IMG/VR virus record: IMGVR_UViG_3300005842_000042
Location: 1-25,398 of that record
Direction: 5' to 3' (one strand)
Length of the DNA: 25,398 nucleotides
Origin: a virus
Positions 773-16,043 of this stretch are shown here, in pieces. Within the stretch, counting starts at the first letter, position 1. Each line of letters opens with the position of its first letter. The notes under the pieces are model-generated. The model saw only the letters and a program-made list of their open reading frames with translations. It did not search any database and was not told the DNA's origin. Both the position numbers and the translations under genes were made by a program.

Positions 773-961
773 CTAGTTTATCTCGGGAGCCATTCGTAAT
801 GCGTCAAGGATCTCTTCTATCAATTCCTTGGGCATCGTGGCCTCATCAGCGAAACGACAGGCATAGACAGTTTCTCCGGTTTCATCCTTAGTGGCGGTGA
901 GCACGAGCGGATAAATCTGTCCCCTGTAGCTCAGTGTCAATGGTCGGCTCATAAGAACCAT
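773..961 (-). CDS. Small minus-strand hypothetical protein (moron)
   Basis: A reverse-strand ORF that reads like real protein. Read from 961 it gives 62 residues: two basic/hydrophobic strands (LTLSYRGQIYPLVL), a TKDETGET turn, YACRF, and an acidic amphipathic helix (PKELIEEILDALR). It is opposite to every neighbour. Its start at 961-959 shares the palindromic CATG at 959-962 with the plus-strand start of the glycosyltransferase at 960. A later start at 952 (MSRPLTL) and earlier ones up to 1015 are possible. A CATAAT box sits on the minus strand at 976-971, about 9 nt before the start. I do not recognise the family. Confidence 0.6.
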   Translation of the reverse strand: MVLMSRPLTLSYRGQIYPLVLTATKDETGETVYACRFADEATMPKELIEEILDALRMAPEIN

Positions 962-1679
962 GATCTCATGCATTATGCCGACGCGGGACCGTCGCAATTT
1001 CATACCGCGTGTCATCGCCTGCTTCCTGTCTCAGACGTACACCGACAGCGAGCTAATCATCCTCGATGACGGGATAGACCGCGTAGAGGATCTGATCCCG
1101 CATGACAGGCGGGTGCGCTACTACCATTCGCAGTTTCGGCGCGTGGTCGGAGCCAAGCGAAACATGGCGTGCCAAGCAGCGAACGGCGACGTGATTGCGC
1201 ACTGGGACGACGACGACTGGTCGCACCCTGAACGGCTCGCTACTCAGATCGAACTGCTCAAGGCCGACCCCGACACGCATCTGACTGGTTACTACGCCAT
1301 GGGCTTCCATCGGTTGACCGACGGAAAGGTGTTCCGCTACGAAGCGCGACCGTCCTACGCCATCGGCACATCGTTCATGTACTGGCGTGGGTGGTGGCGC
1401 AGTCATCAGTTTCTCGACATGCAGAAGTCGGAAGATAACACGTTCCTCGGTCACGTCGGGCGAGCGGCATGCGTAGACGGATCGCAAATGATGGTCGCGA
1501 CGGTCCACAAGGATGGTACCTGCGACAAAGACGGCGCGATGGACCTTATCGAAGATCGTGAGAGAACACGGCAAGCTCGGATTCAGATGGGCGAAACGAA
1601 CCCGCCCAAGTACGAGTGGTCGCACTGGAGCTTCGATCAATTACCGGAAGGATACAGGAGGGTTGCTTGCTTAGGTTGA
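960..1679 (+). CDS. Glycosyltransferase family 2-like protein (GT-A fold)
   Basis: A 239-residue soluble protein starting MISCIMPTRDRR, the usual first strand of GT2 enzymes. LIILDDG at about 32-38 supplies the first nucleotide-binding acidic pair. AKRNMACQAANGDVIAHW leads into the metal/nucleotide-sugar DXD-like run D83-D86 followed by W87. No signal peptide or membrane segment is visible, so it should act in the cytoplasm using a nucleotide-sugar donor. Donor and acceptor cannot be told from sequence. No strong ribosome-binding site precedes the ATG. It starts the longest same-strand stretch of the sugar cargo and its 3' end overlaps the methyltransferase gene. Confidence 0.88.
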   Translation: MISCIMPTRDRRNFIPRVIACFLSQTYTDSELIILDDGIDRVEDLIPHDRRVRYYHSQFRRVVGAKRNMACQAANGDVIAHWDDDDWSHPERLATQIELLKADPDTHLTGYYAMGFHRLTDGKVFRYEARPSYAIGTSFMYWRGWWRSHQFLDMQKSEDNTFLGHVGRAACVDGSQMMVATVHKDGTCDKDGAMDLIEDRERTRQARIQMGETNPPKYEWSHWSFDQLPEGYRRVACLG

Positions 1680-2116
1680 ACCTCGGTTGCTCAAGTACGC
1701 TTGAGCCCGGATACGTGAACGTTGACATCGCGGAGCCTGCGGACCAAATCGCGGACCTCGCAGAGCGCTGGCCTTGGGATGACTCCACTGTTGACTTCGT
1801 GCGAGCGCATGACATCTTCGAGCACATCGCAGACAAGAAGCACACACTGAACGAGCTTTACCGCGTGCTTGTCCCTAACGGACGCTGCGAGATGGTCGTG
1901 CCCACGACTGACGGGCGCGGCGCGTGGCAGGACGTGGACCACAAGAGCTACTGGAACCCGAACAGCCTGTTCTATCTCGAATACAACAACCCGCACAACA
2001 CGCGATTCAAGGCCGCGTACGGAATGAATCACCACTTCCGCATCATCGAGCAGAAGCACGAGAAGCTCGCCGACGAGGTATGGAAGTTGACGGCGGTTCT
2101 GGAGGCAGTCAAGTGA
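1667..2116 (+). CDS. SAM-dependent class I methyltransferase
   Basis: A TTG start at 1667 is preferred because AGGAGG lies at 1656-1661, five bases upstream, and the protein then begins directly with the SAM-binding strand (149 residues). Motif I is LNLGCSS (residues about 4-10), followed by GYVNVDI with the acidic motif II residue. VDFVRAHDIFEHI at about 42-54 and a LNELYRVLVPNGRCEMVVP segment complete a Rossmann methyltransferase of the methyltransf_11/23 type. Such enzymes often sit in O-antigen or glycan loci. It overlaps the preceding glycosyltransferase by 13 nt, implying coupled translation and possibly methylation of the same glycan. Confidence 0.85.
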   Translation: MLRLNLGCSSTLEPGYVNVDIAEPADQIADLAERWPWDDSTVDFVRAHDIFEHIADKKHTLNELYRVLVPNGRCEMVVPTTDGRGAWQDVDHKSYWNPNSLFYLEYNNPHNTRFKAAYGMNHHFRIIEQKHEKLADEVWKLTAVLEAVK

Positions 2117-2505
2117 GAGATCCACGGACGGAGCCACGCGCTGGGGATGCGATTCTCAGCGATGGAAGCGCCTACGTAATCGGTGAGGTTGACGATGCCG
2201 AGGTTATGTACGGCTGTGGCGACCATCGGTATTGGTACAAGCCTCTAGATCAATGGCGCGACGACATGAAGGAAGCGACGGTTCTGCACGTTGCCGAGGA
2301 AGTAGTGAAGGAATGCGCCGCGTGCAAGGCTACACGCGATGGACTGGAAATCGTCCCCGCTGGCTTTGAAATCGCCGAACTGTGCGCGACTCACCTCAAG
2401 AGGTACAGGACGTTCGAGAAAGAAGAAACCCGCAAGCAATGGGAGGCTGAACTGGAGCGTATGCGAAAGGCTGGTCTGGACTTTACATGCCATATCGCGT
2501 TGTAA
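2113..2505 (+). CDS. Hypothetical protein with putative zinc ribbon
   Basis: A GTG start at 2113 overlaps the previous stop (GTGA), with GGAGG at 2101-2105 as ribosome-binding site; 130 residues. The N-terminus (RDPRTEPRAGD, then DAEVMYG and a WRDDMKEATVLH stretch) resembles small phage proteins of unknown function. The C-terminal half has C68-x2-C71 and C91-x2-H94, a likely zinc site, then a charged helix (EKEETRKQWEAELERM). Function unknown. Its last 19 nt overlap the next glycosyltransferase. Confidence 0.72.
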   Translation: MRDPRTEPRAGDAILSDGSAYVIGEVDDAEVMYGCGDHRYWYKPLDQWRDDMKEATVLHVAEEVVKECAACKATRDGLEIVPAGFEIAELCATHLKRYRTFEKEETRKQWEAELERMRKAGLDFTCHIAL

Positions 2506-3212
2506 TCTGCTCGCGCAATGAGGACAACCTAACCGCCTGCGTCAAAGCGATCCTGCGCAACCAGCCGGACCTGACGCCTGACCGAATCATCGTAGTCAAT
2601 GACGGGCTCAGCATCGGCGATCTGATGCGCGAGTTTGGCGGCGTGTTCCCGTTCACGATTGTTCAAGGCGAGAAGCCTTTCGTGTACGCGCGGAACAACA
2701 ACATCGGTATCCGGCACGCGGGCACGGATGACTGTTTGCTCACGAACGACGATGCCCTGCTGACTACACCAAACGGGTTCAATCTGCTCGCTGAGGCATG
2801 CGCGGCGCACCCCGAGATTGGCATCCTCTCCCCTGCGATCAACAACGTCGGCAACACGAACCAGAATCAAGCGAAGGGCTCAACAGGGATTCGGTATGAC
2901 GACCGCATGCTGTGCTTCTCGTGCGTATACATCCCGCGCAAGACTTTCGATGCTGTGGGCCTTTTAGAAGAGTGTTATGTAGCGTACGGAATGGAAGATG
3001 ATTCCTACTCCTTGATGGTCCGCAATGCCGGGCTGAAGCTCGGGATTCTAGATTCCGTCTTCGTTGACCATGGATCTCTGAAGAGCGAGTATCGCGGCAA
3101 GGGGAGCGGCGACTATCGGCCCAATCTGCGGATCTTCATTCGCAAGTGGGGCCATGACAACTGGGGAAAAACAAAAGAAAATTCCCAATTTCCTGAGTGT
3201 TTCGAGGATTAA
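2487..3212 (+). CDS. Glycosyltransferase family 2-like protein
   Basis: A 241-residue soluble protein. VVICSRNE (5-12) is the first strand. IIVVNDG (34-40) holds the donor-binding acidic residue. ARNNNIGI (68-75) is the typical GT2 helix start, and LLTNDDALL with D88-D89 is the DXD-equivalent. GLLEECYVAYGMEDDSYSLMVRNAGLKLGI carries the catalytic-base-type acidic cluster seen as ED in rhamnosyl- and galactosyl-type GT2 enzymes. No membrane helix is seen. It is the second of four glycosyltransferases in this block. Its stop is followed by the only sizeable gap in the block (about 80 nt), which leads into the HNH gene. Confidence 0.87.
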   Translation: MPYRVVICSRNEDNLTACVKAILRNQPDLTPDRIIVVNDGLSIGDLMREFGGVFPFTIVQGEKPFVYARNNNIGIRHAGTDDCLLTNDDALLTTPNGFNLLAEACAAHPEIGILSPAINNVGNTNQNQAKGSTGIRYDDRMLCFSCVYIPRKTFDAVGLLEECYVAYGMEDDSYSLMVRNAGLKLGILDSVFVDHGSLKSEYRGKGSGDYRPNLRIFIRKWGHDNWGKTKENSQFPECFED

Positions 3213-3216
3213 GCGG

Positions 3217-3222
3217 TAAAAT
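3217..3222 (+). promoter_or_regulatory. Possible -10 box upstream of HNH gene
   Basis: TAAAAT lies in the short gap after the second glycosyltransferase. No convincing -35 hexamer sits 16-18 nt upstream (TGAGTG at 17 nt). The context TAAAATAGT resembles TAGAATAGT before the small gene at 16080. It could let the HNH gene be expressed apart from the late operon. Weak evidence. Confidence 0.25.
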
Positions 3223-3290
3223 AGTAGTCGAGCCAAGCAGTGTTGGAAGCACCGCAAGGCTCTAATCACCCGATCTGGATTGGAGATCAA

Positions 3291-3908
3291 GTGCCTACCC
3301 AAGATACTAGCGCACCCTTACACAAGACCTGCAGTAAATGTGCCGAATGGAAGCCGATAGACGACTTTCCGCTCACGAGAGGAAAGCGCTTCAATTGCTG
3401 CCGTAAGTGCCAGAGCCTGAACGCCAAGAGATGGGCCGATGCAAACCGAGAGAAGGTTCGGATTGCGAAGAAGGCGTACGAGAAGCGATACCCCGATCGG
3501 GTAGCAGAATCTAAATCCAAAAACTTCGCGATCCATGGCGAGCGCTACAAGAAGGCGACGTCAGAGGCTAAGCAAGCGAACAGAGAAGAAGAAAACAGGA
3601 AACTCAGAGAGCAATACCGCCGTGATCCTACACCGTTTCAGTTGCGCAATAAGCGGCGTGAGGATCGTGAAGCGGCCCTGCCCGGAACATTCACGAAGGA
3701 CGATCGGATCACACTCCTGAACCAGCAGAATTGGGAGTGCAACGGATGCCTCAGGCCGATTGACGAGAGGGCTCACGCGGATCACAGGACGCCCGTAGTT
3801 CGCGGCGGATCTAACGGTATCGAGAATCGCCAGATGCTTTGCAAGCGGTGCAATCACTTGAAAGGAACGATGACGCAGGAAGAGTGGATGATGAGGCGCG
3901 CAGGATGA
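3291..3908 (+). CDS. HNH homing-type endonuclease
   Basis: A GTG start at 3291 has GGAG about seven bases upstream; the frame is also open from a GTG at 3240. The 205-residue protein begins with a treble-clef or zinc-ribbon pair (C14-x2-C17, then CCRKC) and a long basic helical middle. It ends with a classic HNH core: C150-x2-C153, H162-A-D-H165, an asparagine-containing loop (GGSNGIENRQML), and C184-x2-C187-N-H. Such enzymes are nicking or cutting nucleases, often mobile and free-standing in phages. The zinc-rich N-terminus probably binds DNA. It sits within the sugar cargo, and its stop codon overlaps the start of the Ntn hydrolase (ATGA). Confidence 0.88.
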   Translation: MPTQDTSAPLHKTCSKCAEWKPIDDFPLTRGKRFNCCRKCQSLNAKRWADANREKVRIAKKAYEKRYPDRVAESKSKNFAIHGERYKKATSEAKQANREEENRKLREQYRRDPTPFQLRNKRREDREAALPGTFTKDDRITLLNQQNWECNGCLRPIDERAHADHRTPVVRGGSNGIENRQMLCKRCNHLKGTMTQEEWMMRRAG

Positions 3909-4438
3909 CAGCCATAGCGGGGTTCTGTGAAGGCGGCAAGGTCTACATCGGGGGAGATAGCGCAGGGGTAAGTGGCTGGAGCATGACGGTACGTGCGGAT
4001 AGTAAGGTGTTCCGCAAGGGCGAGTTCATCTTTGGATTCACGTCATCATTTCGTATGGGGCAACTGCTCCGCTACAAACTGCAACCTCCGCAGCAAAATG
4101 CGGATCAAGACACCGCCGAGTACATGGCTACATCATTCGTAGATGCGGTGCGTACCTGCCTGAAAGATGGCGGATTCGCAGAGAAAGATAAAGATGCCGA
4201 GAAGGGCGGTACGTTCTTAGTCGGATATCGCGGCAGGATTTTCAGGGTCGCCAGCGACTACCAGGTTGGCGAATCGCTCTGCGGTTATGATGCGGCTGGA
4301 TGCGGCGAGGACGCCTGCCTTGGGGCGCTGTTCGCTACGAAGGGCATGGAGCCTGAAAAGCGGATGCAGATTACCCTTGAGGCGGCAGAGCAGCACAGCG
4401 CGGGAGTCCGGGGGCCGTTCCATACGGAATCATTGTGA
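3905..4438 (+). CDS. Proteasome-beta/HslV-like Ntn hydrolase
   Basis: An ATG at 3905 overlaps the HNH stop (ATGA); 177 residues. Numbering from the residue after Met, the catalytic positions of proteasome beta subunits are all present: Thr1 (TAIAGF), Asp17 (in IGGDSAG) and Lys33 (in ADSKVF). The strand EFIFGFTSS follows, as in the family. A later AAGCGEDACLGAL segment aligns with the GSG-x4-A-GAL region, with Cys where Ser129 normally lies. Known members are self-compartmentalised peptidases or small-molecule amidases activated by exposing the N-terminal Thr. Removal of Met1 alone would suffice here, so no propeptide is needed. Substrate unknown. The remaining frame open upstream of 3905 lies inside the HNH gene and is not used. 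Confidence 0.75.
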   Translation: MTAIAGFCEGGKVYIGGDSAGVSGWSMTVRADSKVFRKGEFIFGFTSSFRMGQLLRYKLQPPQQNADQDTAEYMATSFVDAVRTCLKDGGFAEKDKDAEKGGTFLVGYRGRIFRVASDYQVGESLCGYDAAGCGEDACLGALFATKGMEPEKRMQITLEAAEQHSAGVRGPFHTESL

Positions 4439-5991
4439 AAGTCCTGATTCTCGGAGCATCGGGGATCGTGGGGTCCAGCATGCGCCTCTGCGTTCCTCCC
4501 GGCATCGAACCGATCTGGCACCGCAAGGCGGCGGATGCGTGGCATTTCGGCACGGATTTAGAAAACGGGGCGGTTTCCCTGCGCGAATGGATTGAGAAGC
4601 GTTCTCCAGTAGGCGCGGTCGTTTATCTCGCTGGAGAGTGTGACGTTGACACCGTACAGAAGAATCCGAGGGCATGCAGGGGCGTAAACGTATCTTTCCC
4701 GGGCTCCCTATCCACACTCTGCGGTCGAAACGGGAGCCATCTGATATACGCATCCAGTCAAGCCGTGCTGGGCGGCCCTGTTAACGAGTATGGGATTCAG
4801 AAGTTGGCGGCTGAGAAACTGGTAGCGGCGAATGGGGACAACTGGACAATCGCCCGCCTAACCTTCGTTCTCGGCATCCGCCCAATGCCGCACCAGGGGC
4901 GCAAGAATCCGCTAGAGGCGATGCTGGACGGATCGCACACGAAGCAGGTGGCCGACCGCTGGTTTAGTCCGCTGTTCGCCCGCGATGCAGCCAAGGCGCT
5001 ATGGCGACTCGTGATCGACCAGCCGAAACGCAAGATTGTCCACATCGGTACGCCGATCAGGGTCAGCCGCTACGACATCTCTGTGGCCGCTGGAGTGCCC
5101 TGCGAGGCGGTATCGCATGATTCCTTCACCGGACTGGCACCGAGGCCGCTAGACACGACGTACCCGCCTGATTCGCTGCATTACAGCAGCCTTGAGGACG
5201 GCCTGAAGCAAGCCAAACAGGACTACGAGGATCGACAACAGATGAACGTGGCAGACCGAGCGCGGGAGATCGCGCTGTTTTTGGGGAGACGTGAGGATGA
5301 GTGCCTAGCGAAGCTCAGTCGCGGCTTCATCCCGCTGCACCACGAGGTAACGGCTGACTTCAAAGCGGCGAACATCGGCGACGACGACGCGAAGCTGCTG
5401 GAGTGGTACCGCACGACCGAGGCATATATCTGGGAACTGAGCGCCTACCACACAGACCCCGGATACAACTACGCGGGAAAGTGCCAAGGGATTGCGGAAG
5501 CGCTCGTGGCGAAGGGCTGCAAAACTGTTCTGTGTCTCGGAGACGGCATCGGGGATTTGACGTTGGCTCTGCTCAAGGCTGGGCTGCATGCCACGTACCA
5601 CGATCTAGCCGGGAGCCGAACTTATGAGTTCGCTAGGTTCCGATTTTCAAGGCACGGACGGCCACCAACGCACCTGATGACGGCAGGGTGGGAGCCTGAT
5701 ATCGCCTTTTTGAGCCAGTTTGATGCTGTCGTTTCGCTGGACTTCCTGGAACACGTATGTAATGTAGAAAGCTGGGTTGCCGCCATTCACGGCGTACTCA
5801 AGCCCGGAGGCTGGTTCGTCGCGCAGAACGCCTTCAATTGCGGCAGTGGGCCGGACGGCAGTATTCCGATGCACCTCAGCCGCAATGACAAGTACGAGCA
5901 ATTGTGGGATCCGACGTTGGAGCAGATCGGCTTTCGTCAGCATGGACCGAATTGGTACCAGCGGCCCGTCGGCGTCGAGGTAGCAGCGTGA
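4435..5991 (+). CDS. Fusion: RmlD-like NAD(P) sugar reductase/epimerase + SAM methyltransferase
   Basis: A GTG start at 4435 overlaps the previous stop (GTGA); 518 residues. The N-terminal half (about 1-265) is a short-chain dehydrogenase/epimerase. It has the nucleotide-binding GASGIVGS at about 7-14, VVYLAGECDVD, a catalytic Ser region (ASSQAV, S107-S108) and the YxxxK pair Y119/K123. It most resembles dTDP-4-dehydrorhamnose reductase (RmlD). From about residue 270 a helical linker leads to a class I methyltransferase with motif I LCLGDGIGD (366-374), a VVSLDFLEHV motif (432-441) and GVLKPGG. One polypeptide could therefore reduce or epimerise a nucleotide sugar and methylate the sugar or product. 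No membrane segment. Confidence 0.83.
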   Translation: MKVLILGASGIVGSSMRLCVPPGIEPIWHRKAADAWHFGTDLENGAVSLREWIEKRSPVGAVVYLAGECDVDTVQKNPRACRGVNVSFPGSLSTLCGRNGSHLIYASSQAVLGGPVNEYGIQKLAAEKLVAANGDNWTIARLTFVLGIRPMPHQGRKNPLEAMLDGSHTKQVADRWFSPLFARDAAKALWRLVIDQPKRKIVHIGTPIRVSRYDISVAAGVPCEAVSHDSFTGLAPRPLDTTYPPDSLHYSSLEDGLKQAKQDYEDRQQMNVADRAREIALFLGRREDECLAKLSRGFIPLHHEVTADFKAANIGDDDAKLLEWYRTTEAYIWELSAYHTDPGYNYAGKCQGIAEALVAKGCKTVLCLGDGIGDLTLALLKAGLHATYHDLAGSRTYEFARFRFSRHGRPPTHLMTAGWEPDIAFLSQFDAVVSLDFLEHVCNVESWVAAIHGVLKPGGWFVAQNAFNCGSGPDGSIPMHLSRNDKYEQLWDPTLEQIGFRQHGPNWYQRPVGVEVAA

Positions 5992-6212
5992 GATGCGGGG
6001 ATTGCAGGTACTGGGAAAGCCCGATTTCATTCGGACTGCATCGCGACTGGAAAAGCACCATGGGGATGTGCGGTTTGATGGGTAGCGCTGACGGAGATCC
6101 ATGCAATGAGCATGGCGTTTCCTCTAAAGCAACCGCGCTGGACTCCGAGGAACATGCGGCGCAGGTAATGTGTTCGGCTGATTTCGGATGTATCCAATTC
6201 ATAAGCAAATGA
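5988..6212 (+). CDS. Small Cys-rich protein
   Basis: A GTG start at 5988 overlaps the fusion gene stop (GTGA); 74 residues. The start MRCGDCRYWE gives a CxxC at residues 3-6, with further cysteines in MCGL, DPCNEH, MCSAD and FGCIQF, enough for one or two zinc sites. This pattern (CGDCRYW...GxC...C) recurs in small phage and bacterial proteins of unknown role. It is translationally coupled to its neighbours on both sides by 4-nt overlaps. Function unknown. Confidence 0.65.
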   Translation: MRCGDCRYWESPISFGLHRDWKSTMGMCGLMGSADGDPCNEHGVSSKATALDSEEHAAQVMCSADFGCIQFISK

Positions 6213-6625
6213 GGCCAATCCCAACCAAAGATAAATCCGGCGAGCCGAACGGCTACCTGATCCCGCTGTGGAGCGTGAACGAGGCCCCATGGTTGCGGCC
6301 CGATCAGGTGTACGTGACCGTGGTCGATCCCGGCAAGAGCAAGGGGCCGCACTTGCACATGAAGCGGCGCGGATTCTTCCACTGCATTTCAGGGCAAGTC
6401 GCATTCATTCTGCGGGTAGATGGTTACTACGTGCGCTACGAGGCGAGCCCGAACAACGGACCTGTGATCGTGCCACCGGGGACGCCCTGCGAGATTCGGA
6501 ACGTTGGCCCCAGTCCCGCCTTCGTGGTAAATATGCCGAGTCCCGCATGGGCGAAAGACGATCAAGACGACTGGCCAGTGGATGACTGGGATACGGGGGA
6601 AGGTTCTGTACTCAGTTTTCCATAA
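6209..6625 (+). CDS. Cupin-fold sugar epimerase/isomerase-like protein
   Basis: The start at 6209 is preferred because it makes an ATGA overlap with the previous stop; 138 residues. An in-frame ATG at 6188 would add seven. The core is a double-stranded beta-helix cupin: VYVTVVDPG, then GPHLHMKRRGFFHCISGQV (metal- or substrate-binding His pair), a VDGYYVRYE strand, VIVPPGTPCEIRNVG and AFVVNMPSPAW, ending in a DDQDDW acidic tail. This resembles WxcM/FdtA- or RmlC-type nucleotide-sugar ketoisomerases and epimerases, which fits the neighbouring RmlD-like reductase. The exact reaction is not determinable by eye. Confidence 0.75.
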   Translation: MRPIPTKDKSGEPNGYLIPLWSVNEAPWLRPDQVYVTVVDPGKSKGPHLHMKRRGFFHCISGQVAFILRVDGYYVRYEASPNNGPVIVPPGTPCEIRNVGPSPAFVVNMPSPAWAKDDQDDWPVDDWDTGEGSVLSFP

Positions 6626-6800
6626 CGAAGTGAAGCAGTCGCCGGAAACGGACTGCATACGGATCGCACGGCAGACCGCGTGGGGCTTGTGTAGGCAGAA
6701 CGGAGGCACGGCGCGAATCGAGCAGGATGGACGGGCGGTCGCGACCTTCGCGGCGGTTGAATTCGGCGTGAGTGTTTGGCGAGTAGAGGAGAGGGCTTGA
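6582..6800 (+). CDS. Small hypothetical protein
   Basis: A 72-residue ORF overlapping the cupin gene by 44 nt if begun at the ATG at 6582. No clear ribosome-binding site is seen; a GTG at 6630 would remove the overlap. The sequence (LYSVFHNEV, CIRIARQTAWGLC, GTARIEQDGRAVATF) looks like a compact alpha/beta peptide and ends in a TGATG junction with the next gene, supporting a real gene. Family not recognised. Confidence 0.55.
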   Translation: MTGIRGKVLYSVFHNEVKQSPETDCIRIARQTAWGLCRQNGGTARIEQDGRAVATFAAVEFGVSVWRVEERA

Positions 6801-7003
6801 TGATCTGTGGTGAGTGCGGTGGCGAGACTATTGCCGAGATTCCATCGGACGTAAAGGAATTGATCAAACAATCCGTACTGGTTGGGGAGATGTGCGACCC
6901 CGGAGGAAGGCTGCTGACATTCCAAGACGGCACTGAGGTTCGCCTAAGCGATTACTGCAGTTCGTGCGATTTCGAGACGATCAGAAAGGCTCTGGCTAAG
7001 TGA
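6800..7003 (+). CDS. Small zinc-ribbon protein
   Basis: An ATG at 6800 overlaps the previous TGA (TGATG) and has GAGGAGAGG just upstream; 67 residues. It starts MICGECGGE, with CxxC at residues 3-6, and later has YCSSCDFE with a second CxxC, making a four-cysteine zinc ribbon around a short helix. YgiT-type antitoxin N-terminal domains have a comparable pattern, but no helix-turn-helix or partner toxin is visible. Its stop overlaps the next glycosyltransferase (GTGA). Function unknown. Confidence 0.7.
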   Translation: MICGECGGETIAEIPSDVKELIKQSVLVGEMCDPGGRLLTFQDGTEVRLSDYCSSCDFETIRKALAK

Positions 7004-7887
7004 GGCGACTGGATATCGGTTGTGTTGTCTACGGCAATGCGGCAGCGCTGAGCAACTGCATCAACGCGATCAGGGAGCACAGCGTAACAGACTGGCGACT
7101 GTTCCTTATCGTCAATCCGCACCCTACGGACACCGAGGCAGCGGCACTCGCGGCAGATTGGGCCGCACGCGATACGCGCATGGTGCATGTGCCTTTACCG
7201 AAGAATATCGGCTATGCCGGGGGCGTTAATAAACTGCTCTTGGAGTTGGCAGAAACTCCCCTAGTTGCCTATCTCGACCATGACGCCTACGTACACACGC
7301 ACGGCTGGGACGAACAAATGGCCGCGATGCTGGATGCGAATAAGGAGTGCGGTCAGGTCTACTCAGGAGCAGGGCACTACGGCTTCCACAATGGGCGGTA
7401 CCGCGAATGCCTCTGGAGCGCTGGCTACTTTTGGATGTTGCGACGTTCGGCCCTGGAGCACCCACGGCTCGCAAGCGGGATGAATACCGAGCTAGGTCAT
7501 CACGAGGAAGTCGATCTGATGACCCGCATGAGGCTGGCCGGATACACGATCGGCTGCATCCCTGAGATCAGCGTCACGCACGATGAGAGCGCAACGCGGT
7601 CGCCAGAGAGCGCACAGCGCATCCATGACGGAGTAGTCCGGTGGATGAACCACTGGAACGGCTATTTTTGCGGCGACCAACTGAAGTACTGCATGACCGC
7701 TTACGACCCGCGCTCCCTGCGATACACGGATTGGAATGCCAACGCGCTGTTCTTGGAGCGGATGACCCTACATTACTTCCCCGATTGGAACAAGACACCG
7801 CGATCAGTCAGCGTACCCGGAGTTGGAGAGATGGACGTGATTGAAGTACTGAAGCCCAAAGGACCCTATGCTGGCCGAGCTATCTAG
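7000..7887 (+). CDS. Glycosyltransferase family 2-like protein (rhamnosyltransferase type)
   Basis: A GTG at 7000 overlaps the preceding stop (GTGA); 295 residues. The N-terminal strand is LDIGCVVYGN. FLIVNPHPTD replaces the usual VVDNxSxD. NIGYAGGVN (69-77) is the highly typical GT2 rhamnosyltransferase motif, and VAYLDHDAYV gives D93-H94-D95 as the DXD. ELGHHEEVDLMTRMRLAGY (E169-E170-D172 region) supplies the catalytic base cluster. No membrane helices. The altered VNPHPTD strand suggests an unusual nucleotide-binding site. It overlaps the last glycosyltransferase of the block by 20 nt. Confidence 0.88.
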   Translation: MRRLDIGCVVYGNAAALSNCINAIREHSVTDWRLFLIVNPHPTDTEAAALAADWAARDTRMVHVPLPKNIGYAGGVNKLLLELAETPLVAYLDHDAYVHTHGWDEQMAAMLDANKECGQVYSGAGHYGFHNGRYRECLWSAGYFWMLRRSALEHPRLASGMNTELGHHEEVDLMTRMRLAGYTIGCIPEISVTHDESATRSPESAQRIHDGVVRWMNHWNGYFCGDQLKYCMTAYDPRSLRYTDWNANALFLERMTLHYFPDWNKTPRSVSVPGVGEMDVIEVLKPKGPYAGRAI

Positions 7888-8896
7888 ACCCACAACGTAC
7901 ACCGAGATCGGGAACTCAGACGGTTGGATCTGCGCGTCTTGCGGTTCGGTTCGTGCGGCGCATTCGGGATCTACTCACGAGTTCGTGCGGTCAACCTGCA
8001 AGTTCGCGGCGATGCTACGGATCAAAAACGAGGCTCGCTGGATCGGAGAGGTCCTTGAGAGCATTCTGCCGCTCTGTGATCGCATCTTCGTCATGGATGA
8101 CAACTCCACTGACGATACGGTAGCGATCTGTGAAAGCTATGGAGTCACAGTGTTCCGCTCCCCGTTTCAGGGGATGAATGAGAGCCGCGATAAGAACTGG
8201 CTGTACGACCAGATCGTCTCGCAGGTGGAAGCGGAATGGATCGTATGTATCGACGGTGACGAAGTGATGGAGAAGCTCGGCCCGGAGATCATTCGCGAGA
8301 CGTGCGAAGGCTCCGAACGTAACTCATTCTCCCTGCAAATCGCGTTTATGTGGAACGATCTTCATTCTGTGCGCACGGATCGAATCTACGGAGACTTCTG
8401 GCGACCGTCTCTGTTTCGCCCGTACAAAGAAGACCCGAACGTCCCAGACACGCGCAAGATGCTCAGTGAGTTTCGCTTCATGGCGACTCCATTCGGACGC
8501 ACGGTCGGCAATGACCAGCCTAACCTGCACTGCTCATCGGTTCCTCAGCGATTCATTCACGGTCGCGGCCTTTGCCCAGCGCGATTGAAGCATTACGGCT
8601 ACGTCGCTCGTGAAGATCGCGTGCGTAAGTTGGACTTCTACACGTCGATCGACTGGAAAAACGCGGCGGAAGATTGCTACAGGCACATGTGCCAAGGGGA
8701 CACCCCGCGCCTCGAAGAGTTGCCGCGTATCCAGCAGAGGATGCGCGAAGGGCACCTCAACGATTCCGATATCCGATTTATCACCGATGTGCCAGCAGAT
8801 GGCCGCTTCGTACACGCAGGACCACTCAAGGTCGAGCCGTGGGACGAAATGAAGCCATGGCCCGTTACTGACTGGGCACGCCAACAGCACGCATAG
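7868..8896 (+). CDS. Glycosyltransferase family 2 with N-terminal Cys extension
   Basis: ATG at 7868, with AAAGGA a few bases upstream; 342 residues. Residues 1-45 form an extension with C22-x2-C25 and C44 that could bind zinc. The catalytic part begins FAAMLRIKNEARWIGEVLES, typical of WaaE/KdtX-like GT2 enzymes. RIFVMDDNSTDDTVAI (77-84 DDNSTDDT) and VCIDGDE (D129/D131) are the donor- and metal-binding motifs. The C-terminal WRPSLFR, HGRGLCPARLKHYGY and DW-rich tail are also seen in that group. Soluble. Its TAG stop (8894-8896) overlaps the first two bases of the tRNA. Confidence 0.87.
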   Translation: MLAELSRPTTYTEIGNSDGWICASCGSVRAAHSGSTHEFVRSTCKFAAMLRIKNEARWIGEVLESILPLCDRIFVMDDNSTDDTVAICESYGVTVFRSPFQGMNESRDKNWLYDQIVSQVEAEWIVCIDGDEVMEKLGPEIIRETCEGSERNSFSLQIAFMWNDLHSVRTDRIYGDFWRPSLFRPYKEDPNVPDTRKMLSEFRFMATPFGRTVGNDQPNLHCSSVPQRFIHGRGLCPARLKHYGYVAREDRVRKLDFYTSIDWKNAAEDCYRHMCQGDTPRLEELPRIQQRMREGHLNDSDIRFITDVPADGRFVHAGPLKVEPWDEMKPWPVTDWARQQHA

Positions 8897-9089: not shown

Positions 9090-9533
9090 ATGTCTTGCGT
9101 GACATCTGCGGGAACTCCCGCCCAGGGCACTTACATCATGTATGGCGATTGCGGATCGCCAGAGACCTACGTTCCGGTCAGTGGAGTCATGACGATCACT
9201 GGACCGGAAGTAACGCTCGGTGAAATCGAAACGACCAACCACGGCACACCGACTGCGACGCAAGTCGGCAAGACCTATCGCCCCACGCTCCCTGAACCGG
9301 GAACGATTTCATTCCCGATTGTTTGGAATGGGGCCGACGTGACGCACCAGGCCCTGGAAACCATGCAGAGCGCAAAGGAAGTCCGTCGGTGGAGGCTTCA
9401 GGAGTCCGATCCGAGCAACAGAACAAAGCAATTCGAGGGATTCGTTCAGAAAATCGGATCCGCCTTCGACCCGTCGGGAATCATCATGCGGAACGTCACT
9501 CTCCGATTGACCACCGTACCGCACTACGTCTAA
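9090..9533 (+). CDS. Major tail tube protein
   Basis: A 147-residue protein with the pattern of siphovirus tail tube proteins: an N-terminal strand with YIMYGDCGSPETYVPVSGVMTIT, an EIETTNHGTPTATQVGKTYR segment (the D/T-rich loop typical of tube proteins), a PGTISFPIVWNGAD strand, HQALETMQS helix and a C-terminal RLTTVPHYV strand. It lies directly upstream of the frameshifted chaperone pair and tape measure, the invariant order in long-tailed phages. Its structured leader and strong Shine-Dalgarno fit a highly expressed structural gene. Confidence 0.85.
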   Translation: MSCVTSAGTPAQGTYIMYGDCGSPETYVPVSGVMTITGPEVTLGEIETTNHGTPTATQVGKTYRPTLPEPGTISFPIVWNGADVTHQALETMQSAKEVRRWRLQESDPSNRTKQFEGFVQKIGSAFDPSGIIMRNVTLRLTTVPHYV

Positions 9534-10251: not shown

Positions 10252-13200
10252 ATGGCAGATCTCGGCACACTCATGATGCGTATCGGCGTTGACGTCGCGG
10301 ATGGTGTAGCCGGGATAACTGGGTTTGCGCGTGAGCTGGAAGGGCTTGCTACTTCTGTAGATCGCAATTTTGCGGCGCTCGACAAGATAGGCGATAGGCT
10401 TACCAGCCTAGGCGTCGGGCTGACGGGCGCTTTGACCGCTCCACTGGCCGCTATCGGCCTAGCTGCTGGCAAGGCAGCGATGGATTTCGATGAGGCAAGC
10501 GATACCATTCGGGCCAAAACTGGAGCGGTAGGGGCCGATCTAGCGCGCATGGAGGAGTCTTTCAGGGGTGTATTTGCCAGCGTCCCGAATTCCGCCAAGG
10601 ACGTCACCGACGCACTAACTACGATCCGCATCGGATTGGGAGCGACAGGGGAGCCGCTGGAGCAGTTGAGCACGCAAATGCTCAACCTATCCCGACTCAT
10701 GGGGGAATCAATCGCCCCACTTGGCGCGTCTGTATCGCATGCATTCAATGACTGGAGCGTCAGCATTTCTGATGCCGGCGCGAAGCTCGACTATCTTTAC
10801 CGTGTAGCGCAGAGCACTGGGGTGGGCGTCACCACGCTGACCACGGAGTTGAAAAACTTCGGAGGACCATTGCGTGCTCTCGGTCTCGATTTTGAGCAGT
10901 CTGCGGTAATGCTGGGGACCTTTGAAAAGGCGGGTGTGAATCTTCAGACCGTGATGCCCGGATTGCGGACTGCAATCAAGACATTCGCGGGCGCTGGGCT
11001 CGAAGGCGCAGATGCGTTCAAGGCATTCATTGAAAAGGTGAAGGGACTCGACGACGCGCAGGCCACCCTGTTTACCAAGACGGTGGTGGGCGGCAGGGCT
11101 TTCGTCGATATGTTCCGAGCGATCAAAGAGGGACGTCTGGACCTAGACGACCTCACTGCGGCCATGAAAAAGGGCGGCGACACAATCAACAAGGCGGCAG
11201 AGGATACGCTGTCTTTTGCGGACAAACTGAAGCGCTTCAGGAATGAACTGGAAGTTGCGCTCGAACCGCTCGGTAAGGTGCTCGTGGGTGCGATGGAGAA
11301 CGCGCTTGACGGGATGAAGCCGCTGCTGGATAAGGTGCATGATCTAGCCGTCGGGTTCTCGCAATTGGCCCCATCGACGCAGACGTGGATACTGGCCCTT
11401 GGCGGTGCGGCTGCGGCGGCTGGTCCGCTGCTGATGCTGATTGGGCAAATGGCATCAGGTATTGCCGCACTCGCTCCCGCATTCGGGCTTGCGTTAGTCG
11501 GTATGGTTAAGTTCGTAACCTACCTGTCCGATCTAAATCCAGCGATTGCGACCGTAACGGCTGGGTCGGCGGCATTGGCCCTCGGAATCGTCGCGGCAGG
11601 AACTGCGTTGGCGGCAATTGAGATCAAGGGCATCGCCTCTGACTTTCATGAACTTGGTAACGTCCTGACGTTTGTAGAGCAGAATACCGCCAATTCGCGC
11701 GGGAGTCTCGAGGCGTGGTCCGCTGCTGGAGCCAATGCCAAGAACGAGATTGATCCGCTCTGCATTTCGGTCCAGAAAGCTGCTGGATTCTTTGATGAGC
11801 TTGGATCAAAGATGTCCGCCATCTCGTGGACTAGCCTGCTGACTCCGTTAGGGGCAGTGCGGCAAGCGTTCGCCGATGTCGTAACGAATCTCAAGATCCT
11901 CGTGGGCTATTACCCCGCGATGGACGCCGCGCAGCAGAAGCTCAACGCGACAATGACGGTGGGTATGAAGGCAACGGCCGATTCCGCTATCGCCGCTGGG
12001 CAGTTGGCGTTAGCGCATAAAAACCTATCCCCAACGATTGCGGCAAATACCAGCCTACTCGATGCGCTCGGGAAGAAGCATGGAGAAACCGCAGCACAGA
12101 TAGAGGCGCACCGCAAAAAAATGGAAGAGCTTGGCGCACAGATGACCAAGTTCGAGAACCAGTTCCATGGAACGGAGAATGTCAGCTTAGCCCTGTCGAT
12201 GTTCGGCGACTTCGACGCCAAAGCGGACGAGGTGAAGGCGAAACTCGAAGAGCTTCTAGTCCAGTATCAGGTAATGGCGAAGGCCATCAAGACCACTGCG
12301 GACGCGAACGCCGCGTTCGATATGAAGTGGGCGCGTGAGGCTATCAAGGATATTGCCGATCTAGCCAACGCGTTCGACCATTTCGGAATCGTATCGAAGC
12401 TCGCGTACGACGACGCCACTAAAGCGTCCGATACTTTTCTTGCGACCGTTCTTAACAGCAACAAAAGCACGATTGACCAAAAGCAACAGGCTTGGATTAA
12501 GCACTACCAGGAAATGATCGATCTTGATCGTAAGGCTGGGAAAACTATTAGCGATCAGGACGTTCTAAGGCTGGATCAGATGAAGACGGACTTCGCCAAG
12601 GCCCACATGGACTTGGAGCAGGCGTTCGACGCGATCGGATCTAAGTCGGCTAAGTCCGCGCAGGATAACGCGGAGATTGTCACGGCTGCATACAACCACA
12701 TTGTTGAGTCGTACAAGAAAGGCGACGCTGAGATCGGCGATGTCGAGCGGGCACGCCTAGCAAAGTATCAAGCAGACGCGGCGGCCATGATCGCGGCTGG
12801 TAAAGCCGTTCCTGAGGACTGGAAAGTCCAGATGGACAAGCTGGCCCAGATCACAAAAGACGGTCATAAGACCATGATCAACCTGTGGGGGGAATTCACC
12901 ACGTCGGTTGGAAAAACGGTAGCCACTGGGCTCGACAACATCTGGACCGAACTGCTCACGAAGGGCAAGGTAGACCTGAAGAGTGCGCTCAACTCGCTCT
13001 GGCAGGACATTGCCAAGGACTTCGTTAACGCTTTCATCAAGCCGATGGATAAAGCCATCGGAGACTTCATCGCGAAGTCAATCAAGAGCCTGATTGGTGG
13101 CGATGGATTCGGCGGTATCACCAAGTCAGTTAAGGAACTCGGAACGGAAATAGGCAAGGTGTTCGGTGTCGGTGCTGATGCAGCAAAGACGACTACCGGA

Positions 13201-14970
13201 GCGGCGGCTGCACCTGCTGCGTCGGCGGGTGGCAGTCTCGGAGAGGGGCTTGGATCCGTAACTAGTATCGTGGGGGCGGTTAGTGGAGTAGTTTCTGCAA
13301 TCTCCGGCGTTGTAAGCAACTTCCAGTTCGCGCACATGAATACGGCGCTCGGTCGCATCGAGGAATCGACCCGCAAGACATGGATCGTGACCGGAGAGCA
13401 GTCCGATTCGATCCTTCAAACCCTGCATGATTCGCGTGCATTCTTGGACGACATCAGGGCTCGTGTGTCCGAGATCCGCCCCGCGCTGTTCGACCCCGTA
13501 ACGGTCACCATTGACCGAATCGTAGACTTCCTGAGCGGGACGCTTGGTCCATGGCTGCGAGACAACACGGGCGGCGGTGGCAGTGGAGCGGCAGATACTA
13601 CGCCGACTCCGACCGACGGAGCCACCGACCCAGCCGTTGAGGTAATGAGCGGTGTACTTCGCTCGGTCAATCAACTCGGCGAGGCGACTTATCTCGTCGG
13701 CGGGCGTACGGCGCACACGATCGCCGATGCGGTCATGATGTCGCAGTCAGACTCGACTTCGATACTGGCTAACGGAATCGCGGCTGGTGACTACAACGTC
13801 GCGCAGACTTCGGCGGCTGGTTCGACGGCGGTTGCACAAGCAGTCATCGAAAGCGGCGGTATAGTCGCGGATGCTGTCAATACCACGACTATGAGCGTGC
13901 TAGAAGTCCGCGCCAAACTGGAGGACATCGGCAGTTCCTTTGACGGCGTGATGTACAACACCACGCAGGAATACAACGATCTCAAGGCGACTTTGATCGG
14001 CAAGTCCATCGACGGGACGGGATTCGCTGGGGTATCTCCGCTCAACGGCTGGACTTCGACTTCCACGACACCGATACCGCGCACTGATACGCCTGTTGCT
14101 CCTTACTGGATGCATGCCGCCAACGGATCGACCACTAACACCGACGTGAGCACTAGCGGATCACACGTCATCGTGAACAAGGGCGGAAGTTGGACCAACG
14201 CCTACAGCGACACTGGGACGGGAGCGTCCGCCGGAGGCGGCGTAACAGGCGGTCCTGTTACTTCGGTGCTGCCTCAGGGGATGACTCCGACCGCTACTGG
14301 TCCATCCTTCAGCGACACCATGAAGGCCACGCTGGACGTGTTTGCTGCCAAGCTGAAAGAGCAGGACGACGCCATGACCGCTCGTCTGAAATCGTATCCA
14401 GGCGAGTTCGCAAAGGTCATCAAGGCCATCGGCGACGACATGAAGGCTCTTGGCGAAATCGTCCAAGATGAGAAGCGGACACCAGCCGAAAAGGAAGCCG
14501 CGCAAAACAAATTCGATATTCTCAACGCCCAATATGCGCAGATGGTCAAGTATGGGACCCCGATCTATTCGCAATCCGTAGCGGGCAATCTCTACGGCGT
14601 AAACAGTGGGCTAGCCGTTGATCGTGGCACCCAAGAATCCACGCTTCCCGGAGTCTTCACTGGCACCCAGACTGGCGTTCGCGGCGACTACAACGCCCTT
14701 CAGGAGCGCGACGCCTACCTACGCTGGTTCACTGGCACGTCGGACGGGCAGGACATCCCGGCGTGGGCGCAGACGCTAGACTCCACCATCGGAAGCTGGA
14801 GCGATCTCACCACGCAGTACGTAGCAGCGCAGCAGCAAGCGGCGGCGGGTGGGGGCACTCCAACCGTACAGATCAACATCAGTGGCGATAACTACGGGAC
14901 CGACCCGAGCCAGATCGCTTCGGTGATCTTCGACCGCATCAAGGCCAGTTCCAAGGGCCTCATCGGCTAA
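10252..14970 (+). CDS. Tail tape measure protein
   Basis: 1572 residues, by far the longest gene, placed right after the chaperone pair. The N-terminal 300 residues have the TP901-type tape-measure core (LTGALTAPLAAIGLAAGKAAMDF, AQSTGVGVTTLTTELKNF, LGLDFEQSAVMLGTFEKAGV). Hydrophobic stretches at about 378-425 and 436-456 may insert in the membrane during DNA injection. The middle is long, charged helix (residues about 550-900), followed by Ala/Gly/Thr-rich regions. It ends with VQINISGDNYGTDP. Tape measure length sets tail length; at about 1.5 angstroms per residue this predicts a tail near 235 nm. AGGAAA precedes the ATG. Confidence 0.95.
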   Translation: MADLGTLMMRIGVDVADGVAGITGFARELEGLATSVDRNFAALDKIGDRLTSLGVGLTGALTAPLAAIGLAAGKAAMDFDEASDTIRAKTGAVGADLARMEESFRGVFASVPNSAKDVTDALTTIRIGLGATGEPLEQLSTQMLNLSRLMGESIAPLGASVSHAFNDWSVSISDAGAKLDYLYRVAQSTGVGVTTLTTELKNFGGPLRALGLDFEQSAVMLGTFEKAGVNLQTVMPGLRTAIKTFAGAGLEGADAFKAFIEKVKGLDDAQATLFTKTVVGGRAFVDMFRAIKEGRLDLDDLTAAMKKGGDTINKAAEDTLSFADKLKRFRNELEVALEPLGKVLVGAMENALDGMKPLLDKVHDLAVGFSQLAPSTQTWILALGGAAAAAGPLLMLIGQMASGIAALAPAFGLALVGMVKFVTYLSDLNPAIATVTAGSAALALGIVAAGTALAAIEIKGIASDFHELGNVLTFVEQNTANSRGSLEAWSAAGANAKNEIDPLCISVQKAAGFFDELGSKMSAISWTSLLTPLGAVRQAFADVVTNLKILVGYYPAMDAAQQKLNATMTVGMKATADSAIAAGQLALAHKNLSPTIAANTSLLDALGKKHGETAAQIEAHRKKMEELGAQMTKFENQFHGTENVSLALSMFGDFDAKADEVKAKLEELLVQYQVMAKAIKTTADANAAFDMKWAREAIKDIADLANAFDHFGIVSKLAYDDATKASDTFLATVLNSNKSTIDQKQQAWIKHYQEMIDLDRKAGKTISDQDVLRLDQMKTDFAKAHMDLEQAFDAIGSKSAKSAQDNAEIVTAAYNHIVESYKKGDAEIGDVERARLAKYQADAAAMIAAGKAVPEDWKVQMDKLAQITKDGHKTMINLWGEFTTSVGKTVATGLDNIWTELLTKGKVDLKSALNSLWQDIAKDFVNAFIKPMDKAIGDFIAKSIKSLIGGDGFGGITKSVKELGTEIGKVFGVGADAAKTTTGAAAAPAASAGGSLGEGLGSVTSIVGAVSGVVSAISGVVSNFQFAHMNTALGRIEESTRKTWIVTGEQSDSILQTLHDSRAFLDDIRARVSEIRPALFDPVTVTIDRIVDFLSGTLGPWLRDNTGGGGSGAADTTPTPTDGATDPAVEVMSGVLRSVNQLGEATYLVGGRTAHTIADAVMMSQSDSTSILANGIAAGDYNVAQTSAAGSTAVAQAVIESGGIVADAVNTTTMSVLEVRAKLEDIGSSFDGVMYNTTQEYNDLKATLIGKSIDGTGFAGVSPLNGWTSTSTTPIPRTDTPVAPYWMHAANGSTTNTDVSTSGSHVIVNKGGSWTNAYSDTGTGASAGGGVTGGPVTSVLPQGMTPTATGPSFSDTMKATLDVFAAKLKEQDDAMTARLKSYPGEFAKVIKAIGDDMKALGEIVQDEKRTPAEKEAAQNKFDILNAQYAQMVKYGTPIYSQSVAGNLYGVNSGLAVDRGTQESTLPGVFTGTQTGVRGDYNALQERDAYLRWFTGTSDGQDIPAWAQTLDSTIGSWSDLTTQYVAAQQQAAAGGGTPTVQINISGDNYGTDPSQIASVIFDRIKASSKGLIG

Positions 14971-15024: not shown

Positions 15025-15432
15025 ATGGCAAATTTCGTTTACGACAAGGCCCGAGAATCGTTTCTCAAGGCTGAAATCAACATTACCTCGGACAACATCA
15101 AGGTCGTACTGTGCTCGTCGGGCTACACGGCGAATGCCTCAACCGATCAGTTCCTCTCCGATATCTCGGGCGGGAATCGGATCGCGACGACGGCTAACCT
15201 GGCGAGCAAAACGACCACGGCTGGAGTGTTCGACGCGGCTGATACCGTATGGTCTGCCGTCGCTGGTGGCAGCACCGGAACGCAAGCGGTGATCTATCAG
15301 GACACGGGCAGCGCTGCTACGTCGCGGTTGATCGCCAACATAAACGTGGCTACGAACCTGCCCGTTACCAGCAACGGCTCGGATATCGACATGATCTGGG
15401 ACAATGGTAGCAATAAAATTCTGAAATTGTAG
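15025..15432 (+). CDS. Putative virion structural / minor tail protein
   Basis: 135 residues, starting ANFVYDKARESFLKAEINITSDNIKVVLC. This opening and the later TDQFLSDI, TTTAGVFDAADTVW, AVIYQDTGSA and DIDMIWDNGSNKILKL segments are typical of a small beta-rich protein found next to tail genes in many phages, where it is usually listed as a structural protein of unknown role. It follows the tape measure. The shared 26-nt leader with the tail tube gene suggests high expression and a place in the virion. Confidence 0.72.
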   Translation: MANFVYDKARESFLKAEINITSDNIKVVLCSSGYTANASTDQFLSDISGGNRIATTANLASKTTTAGVFDAADTVWSAVAGGSTGTQAVIYQDTGSAATSRLIANINVATNLPVTSNGSDIDMIWDNGSNKILKL

Positions 15433-15455
15433 TGCTATATGTTCCGTTTGTAACC

Positions 15456-15461
15456 TATAAT
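15456..15461 (+). promoter_or_regulatory. -10 box for HNH moron
   Basis: A perfect TATAAT lies six bases before the ATG at 15468, which would put the transcription start at or next to the A of the start codon (leaderless message). No good -35 hexamer was found at 16-18 nt, so the promoter may be weak or use an activator. Confidence 0.45.
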
Positions 15462-15467
15462 GGTTGC

Positions 15468-16043
15468 ATGGTGATACGTGATTACGCGGAGAAGGAATGC
15501 GGTTCATGTGGAATAAAGTTTAAGCCCAACAGCGGCAGGCAGAGGTTTTGTTCTGGATGCGGTAGGCGCGGCACTACGGTTTGCGCGCACTGCGGCGCAA
15601 GCTTCCACCCGAAGGGGAGTTCGCACGGGGTCTATTGCTCTGTTCAATGCTGTGCATTGGGACGATCTCGGACTGATATGGCAAAGCGGGAATGTCCGAA
15701 ATGTGGGAAGCCGTTTAAGCCATCTTCAGCGATTCAGATCGGATGCTCGCGGGTCTGCGGATATGCGCTGAGAAAAGCTAAGCGTAAGGTTAGGACATGC
15801 CCGGTCTGCAATGTAGAGTTTTGGAATAAGCACTATCACCAAGCGACATGCTCAAGGGAATGCGGCGGCGTGCTACGCCAAAGATCCCTGTTGGCCTACG
15901 AGACCGTCCACCACATCAACGGCAACCGAGCCGACAACCGAATCGAAAACCTGCAACTCCGGGCTGGCAAGCACGGTCCTGGGCAAGCTTTCTGCTGTGC
16001 TGACTGCGGATCGCATAACGTCGTTCCGATCAGCCTGAAGTAG
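15468..16043 (+). CDS. Zinc-rich HNH endonuclease
   Basis: ATG at 15468 chosen over an open frame back to 15432, which has no ribosome-binding site; 191 residues. Cys pairs C11/C14, C28/C31, C39/C42, C57/C61, C76/C79, C93/C97, C111/C114 and C128/C132 form a chain of zinc ribbons or treble clefs. The nuclease motif follows: VHHINGNRADNRIENLQL (H148-H149, N151, N157, N161) and a final C177-x2-C180 pair. This is the HNH_3 type common in free-standing phage homing endonucleases. It probably spreads by cutting phage genomes lacking it. It is unrelated in layout to the HNH gene at 3291. Confidence 0.87.
   Translation: MVIRDYAEKECGSCGIKFKPNSGRQRFCSGCGRRGTTVCAHCGASFHPKGSSHGVYCSVQCCALGRSRTDMAKRECPKCGKPFKPSSAIQIGCSRVCGYALRKAKRKVRTCPVCNVEFWNKHYHQATCSRECGGVLRQRSLLAYETVHHINGNRADNRIENLQLRAGKHGPGQAFCCADCGSHNVVPISLK

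Follow-up and report, generated by a model that had tools for sequence, protein, structure and literature searches.

A phage-borne proteasome-like Ntn hydrolase with an intact catalytic triad, and rhizobial relatives with candidate NifA/sigma-54 promoters

Genes and catalytic residues at the locus

Inspection of the open reading frames in the window, i.e., the whole 25,398-base stretch of an IMG/VR virus record analysed here, places a proteasome-like Ntn hydrolase gene at 3905-4438 on the plus strand, with a product of 177 amino acids. The gene is joined by an ATGA overlap (3905-3908) to an upstream HNH / endonuclease VII-like nuclease gene (3240-3908, plus strand; PF01844, E 5.7e-9; phrog_1035, E 6.9e-21) and by a GTGA overlap (4435-4438) to a downstream RmlD/epimerase and methyltransferase fusion (4435-5991, plus strand; PF04321, E 2.6e-17; PF08242, E 6.8e-9), both of which are treated here as neighbours only. 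The coupling to an HNH nuclease and a sugar-enzyme fusion, as described in an earlier note on this DNA, is hence present, with both neighbours confirmed by Pfam. A run of glycosyltransferase-2 and methyltransferase genes (960-8896) surrounds the gene and is followed by a major tail protein gene (9090-9533) and then a tape-measure gene (10252-14970), 3' of which a second HNH endonuclease is encoded (15432-16043). No gene for an AAA+ / HslU-type ATPase was found among the scanned open reading frames of this 25-kb fragment. The record has 10,435 identical bases in common with one other IMG/VR record, and a megablast search of the window against phages gave no match.

Given what is known of the specificity of methionine aminopeptidase, the initiator Met should be cleaved off in front of Thr. 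Once it is removed, Thr1 (codon 3908-3910), Asp17 (3956-3958) and Lys33 (4004-4006), all on the plus strand, fall at the catalytic positions of the proteasome and HslV, with exactly the spacing that the earlier note had given. Two homologue alignments, one of 15 diverse members and one of 75 close relatives, were used to assess conservation. In the former, M1, T2, D18, K34, G132 and G134 (Met counted) are invariant; in the latter, T1, D17 and K33 are themselves invariant in 75 of 75, and the exact 17/33 spacing is kept in 68. An oxyanion-type glycine, Gly43 (alignment position 44; codon 4034-4036, plus strand), is likewise invariant in both alignments, including all 75 close relatives, and corresponds to the oxyanion-hole Gly47 of the proteasome according to the HslV alignment. 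Further downstream, the protein contains the segment DAAGCGEDACLGAL, in which Gly-Cys-Gly (4298-4306, plus strand) replaces Gly-Ser-Gly. The Cys in place of Ser129, already remarked upon from the sequence, is a clade trait, since C133 occurs in 72 of the 75 close relatives and Ser in the other 3, G132 and G134 being invariant.

Among 154 relatives whose upstream region could be read, 95 offer no possible start codon upstream of M1, so that the family lacks a propeptide. The window gene has an alternative TTG start in the same frame at 3839, and the absence of a propeptide from its product, as claimed earlier, therefore draws its support from the homologues.

Homology, predicted fold and spread

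The window protein matches PHROG 1040, 'peptidase HslV family', over its full length (residues 1-176, E 5.6e-20). Single-sequence searches of Pfam, NCBIfam and the PDB returned nothing useful, no NCBIfam model, and hence no curated HslV model, matching at E <= 1, and HslV was reached by the family alignment only. With a profile of 15 members, the best match in the PDB was HslV (5.7e-12), followed by BPH (1.6e-8) and proteasome beta (1e-5), and the catalytic Thr is in register in these matches. PF00227 (Proteasome) was matched by 9 of the 15 diverse homologues.

An AlphaFold2 model built from the alignment of 75 (pLDDT 95.9, pTM 0.90) has helices at residues 49-58, 70-88, 135-144 and 150-164, and its best Foldseek matches are BPH (3e-11) and HslV (5e-9). 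By VIA-align, it superposes on BPH with Z 20.7 over 168 residues at 2.4 A and on HslV with Z 20.0 over 162 residues at 2.9 A, model residue 2 lying on chain residue 1 in both cases. The monomer model thus has the sandwich fold with the topology of BPH, HslV and beta subunits. The earlier note had named a fold other than the Ntn sandwich, or homologues in which T1, D17 or K33 are not conserved, as grounds against its reading; structure prediction and fold search gave the BPH/HslV fold, and all three residues proved invariant. Its central claim of a proteasome-beta-like Ntn hydrolase whose catalytic triad is intact is consequently borne out by fold, homology and conservation.

Relatives were detected by tblastn in at least 185 phage records, the nearest annotated copy being that of Moorella phage MTATph1 (56% identity), with others in T5-like Salmonella and Escherichia phages and in jumbo phages, and a scan of IMG/VR yielded at least 441 stretches that encode relatives. 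A scan of genome contigs (loci L107-L186) further revealed bacterial relatives in Rhizobium, Sinorhizobium, Mesorhizobium, Azospirillum, Frankia, Actinoplanes and its kin (Micromonosporaceae), and Bacillota. The notion that such a hydrolase is unexpected in a phage does not hold, since phage homologues have already been described (PMC8665760) and public phages carry genes annotated 'peptidase HslV family' or 'proteasome subunit'; the window gene is an ordinary member of this widespread phage family. In Aeromonas phage 2L372X and in Vibrio phage R16F (L013, L022), two neighbouring genes bear an annotation as HslV-family protein or nucleophile aminohydrolase, which might represent a two-subunit arrangement.

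Gene context in phages

The neighbours found in reference phages are diverse and include nucleotide metabolism, HNH, PhoH, peptide deformylase and Sir2 genes. Of 60 IMG/VR loci retained after dereplication, 22 have the gene directly beside a terL, portal, S78 protease or capsid gene, 30 have it at most three genes away from one of these, and 22 have no head gene within reach. When the position of the gene was reshuffled within the same loci, 13.6 such adjacencies were expected against the 22 observed (p 0.003), under a null that is itself tilted towards adjacency, each locus being centred on the gene; the excess holds under stricter dereplication. The gene is repeatedly found in the slot that separates terL from portal, and the terminases at these loci belong to unrelated families. 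The head-gene neighbourhood is, however, a bias and not a rule, and permissive insertion of cargo could yield the same pattern.

A functional tie to the glycan cargo, as suggested by the earlier note, is not supported by this comparison, the adjoining genes being different in nearly all relatives. Because of this variation and the head-gene bias among relatives, the glycan setting, which is local to the window contig, offers no guide to function.

One set of phages, most of them with large genomes (contigs of up to 480 kb), carries the gene in a conserved block together with a phenylalanyl-tRNA-synthetase-like gene, Thg1 and an NAD-dependent DNA ligase (L061, L062, L065, L086, L088, L091, L094, L096, L105 and L106). 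At another locus (L051:2916-4799), the terminase large subunit near the gene has a Hint/intein domain.

Bacterial copies and nitrogen-fixation promoters

In a quick tree of 145 rows, in which many forks remain open, the rhizobial copies group into a single clade (SH-aLRT 99) that is placed among phage sequences; clades of Azospirillaceae, Frankia and Micromonosporaceae are placed likewise, and the window gene falls into a phage-only group. Phage genes are absent from the surroundings of many bacterial copies and, read from their neighbours, the bacterial copies appear to be resident genes and not parts of prophages. Several of the rhizobial ones lie in or near nif/fix regions, where they adjoin nifE, nifN, nifX, a NifX-associated gene and fdxN, others are located between rpoN and nifS-nifV-nifW-fixA, and the copy of R. 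tropici CIAT 899 is found near nifH and nifD on plasmid pRtrCIAT899b.

Of 17 rhizobial loci, 16 have a sigma-54 -24/-12 box (at most two mismatches) between -111 and -124 upstream of the gene, against a background of 6% per 450 nt, and 12 of the 17 additionally have a NifA site, TGT-N10-ACA, 90-190 nt upstream of the sigma-54 box, the background for the pair being 1.6%. The same scan found no such promoter in ten control loci, which included two rhizobial prophages. When 11 diverged upstream regions were aligned, most of the columns without any variation belonged to the two cores, GG-A and TTGC, to the GGA of the ribosome-binding site or to the start codon. The 17 loci are not independent, as all belong to one clade; despite this shared ancestry, the putative promoter footprint stands out from its flanks. 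It can be viewed at about 5690-6003, with the gene at 6001, in L110, L111, L113, L114, L116, L117, L119, L126, L134, L135 and L144.

Judged from these motifs, the rhizobial gene seems to belong to the NifA-RpoN regulon without having been noticed there before. The literature on the NifA regulon of M. loti R7A and alphaproteobacteria, as far as it was covered, makes no mention of a proteasome homologue, and an earlier description elsewhere is possible. Four R. tropici-like copies (L118, L120, L121 and L122; gene at 6001) have an in-frame stop at codon 39, so that the gene looks dispensable there, and these copies are apparently decaying.

The position of the rhizobial clade among phage sequences suggests that a phage gene was taken into the nitrogen-fixation regulon. 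On balance, we lean slightly towards a scenario, drawn from sequence comparison, in which phages brought an unfoldase-free relative of the proteasome into bacteria several times and in which the rhizobial version joined the NifA/sigma-54 regulon, where a phage-derived peptidase would work in symbiotic, microoxic nitrogen-fixing cells.

Discussion

From our point of view, the window gene probably encodes a ring-type, unfoldase-free Ntn hydrolase of the proteasome kind, best filed with AAH by description, that would most likely serve the phage as an accessory late-gene peptidase and clear or trim phage or host proteins. The protein likely cleaves peptide bonds with Thr1 as the nucleophile and without a dedicated unfoldase. 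Thr1 would be exposed by a host methionine aminopeptidase, and its O-gamma would then attack the amide carbonyl, the amino group of the same residue serving as the base and Lys33 and Asp17 assisting, whereupon an acyl-enzyme would form and be resolved by water. By analogy with BPH, the subunits may assemble into a ring-type oligomer that hides the active sites, and unfolded or short polypeptides could be processed in this way without a dedicated AAA+ partner.

Since the gene is frequently found beside head genes, one could also imagine a head-assembly or packaging factor that trims or clears capsid or portal proteins during head maturation. The excess of head-gene adjacency and the recurrence of the terL-portal slot with unrelated terminase families are both in line with this idea. 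However, more than a third of the loci lack a head gene within reach, the copies in huge phages reside next to a tRNA synthetase, Thg1 and NAD ligase and those in T5-like phages next to nucleotide-metabolism genes, head-linked phages in many cases have an S78 prohead protease of their own, numerous bacterial copies are devoid of surrounding phage genes, and the slot may simply tolerate cargo, all of which makes such a role unlikely. An anti-host factor that degrades a regulator or defence protein of the host during infection would fit the patchy, mobile distribution over very different phages, as expected for an accessory host-interaction gene, but resident bacterial copies have been kept, in rhizobia apparently under nitrogen-fixation promoters, which ill suits a host poison, so that we regard this role as distinctly improbable.

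Connectase, a member of the same superfamily, is a monomeric ligase (PMC8665760), and a specific amidase or transpeptidase that modifies a single partner, such as a component of the glycan or surface pathway whose genes lie close by, might be envisaged on this basis. The glycosyltransferases and the epimerase-methyltransferase around the window gene are compatible with such an activity, as is the weak match of two homologues to the connectase N-domain in Pfam (E 0.017), whereas the model has H1 and H2 without the two-helix S3/S4 insert of connectase and glycan neighbours are not the rule around relatives. We therefore consider an amidase or transpeptidase quite doubtful; its glycan-pathway version was set aside because the relatives examined generally do not share that setting. 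Lastly, the change of the Ser129 position to Cys could be taken as a sign of a catalytically dead scaffold that is kept for binding alone, but Thr1, Asp17, Lys33 and the oxyanion glycine are unchanged in all 75 close relatives and both Ser and Cys occur at the altered position within the clade, which renders the loss of activity very improbable. We hence retain the accessory late-gene peptidase as the preferred reading.

Comparison with known proteasome homologues

The 2021 survey by Fuchs, Alva and Lupas added 22 new homologues of the proteasome, PPH and AAH among them, for which it found no informative gene context, no AAA+ partner and no function (PMC8665760). As AAH belongs to these proteasome relatives without function or informative context (PMC8665760), clues from gene context are of value, and two of them now bear on the function of AAH-type proteins, namely the preference for a terminase-portal neighbourhood in phages and the putative NifA/sigma-54 promoter in the nif/fix region of rhizobia, both of which make that function testable. 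While the phage family of proteasome homologues is known, the terminase-portal bias and the candidate rhizobial promoter are what the present analysis adds.

With HslV and BPH, the window protein has the fold and the catalytic positions in common at an identity of about 17-22%, but their GSG motif contains Ser where the window protein has Cys, and HslV pairs with an HslU-type ATPase, none of which was seen among those open reading frames of the 25-kb window that were scanned. PPH, which is found in phages and their hosts, comprises about 140 residues and lacks helix H2 (PMC8665760). It resembles the window protein in being phage-borne and in having the same catalytic triad; the length of 177 residues and the two helices (49-58 and 70-88) at the place of H2 nevertheless speak against membership. 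PHROG 1040, represented by Moorella phage MTATph1 and the T5-like Salmonella phage Sw2, matches over the full length with the same MT start, D18, K34 and GxG, and the sole difference is divergence in sequence, with 56% identity to the closest copy annotated in a phage.

The best fit, matched by description in terms of fold, length, helices and host range, is the AAH branch of group I, near BPH and HslV. AAH occurs in alpha-proteobacteria and Actinobacteria, with Firmicutes also within its range, and in many phages (PMC8665760), and the window family, compared with that description, is similarly found in Rhizobiales, Azospirillum, Frankia, Micromonosporaceae and Bacillota as well as in many phages. 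The compact group I-like fold of AAH, with helices H1-H4 free of insertions and no propeptide, is in all these respects also that of the window protein and its family.
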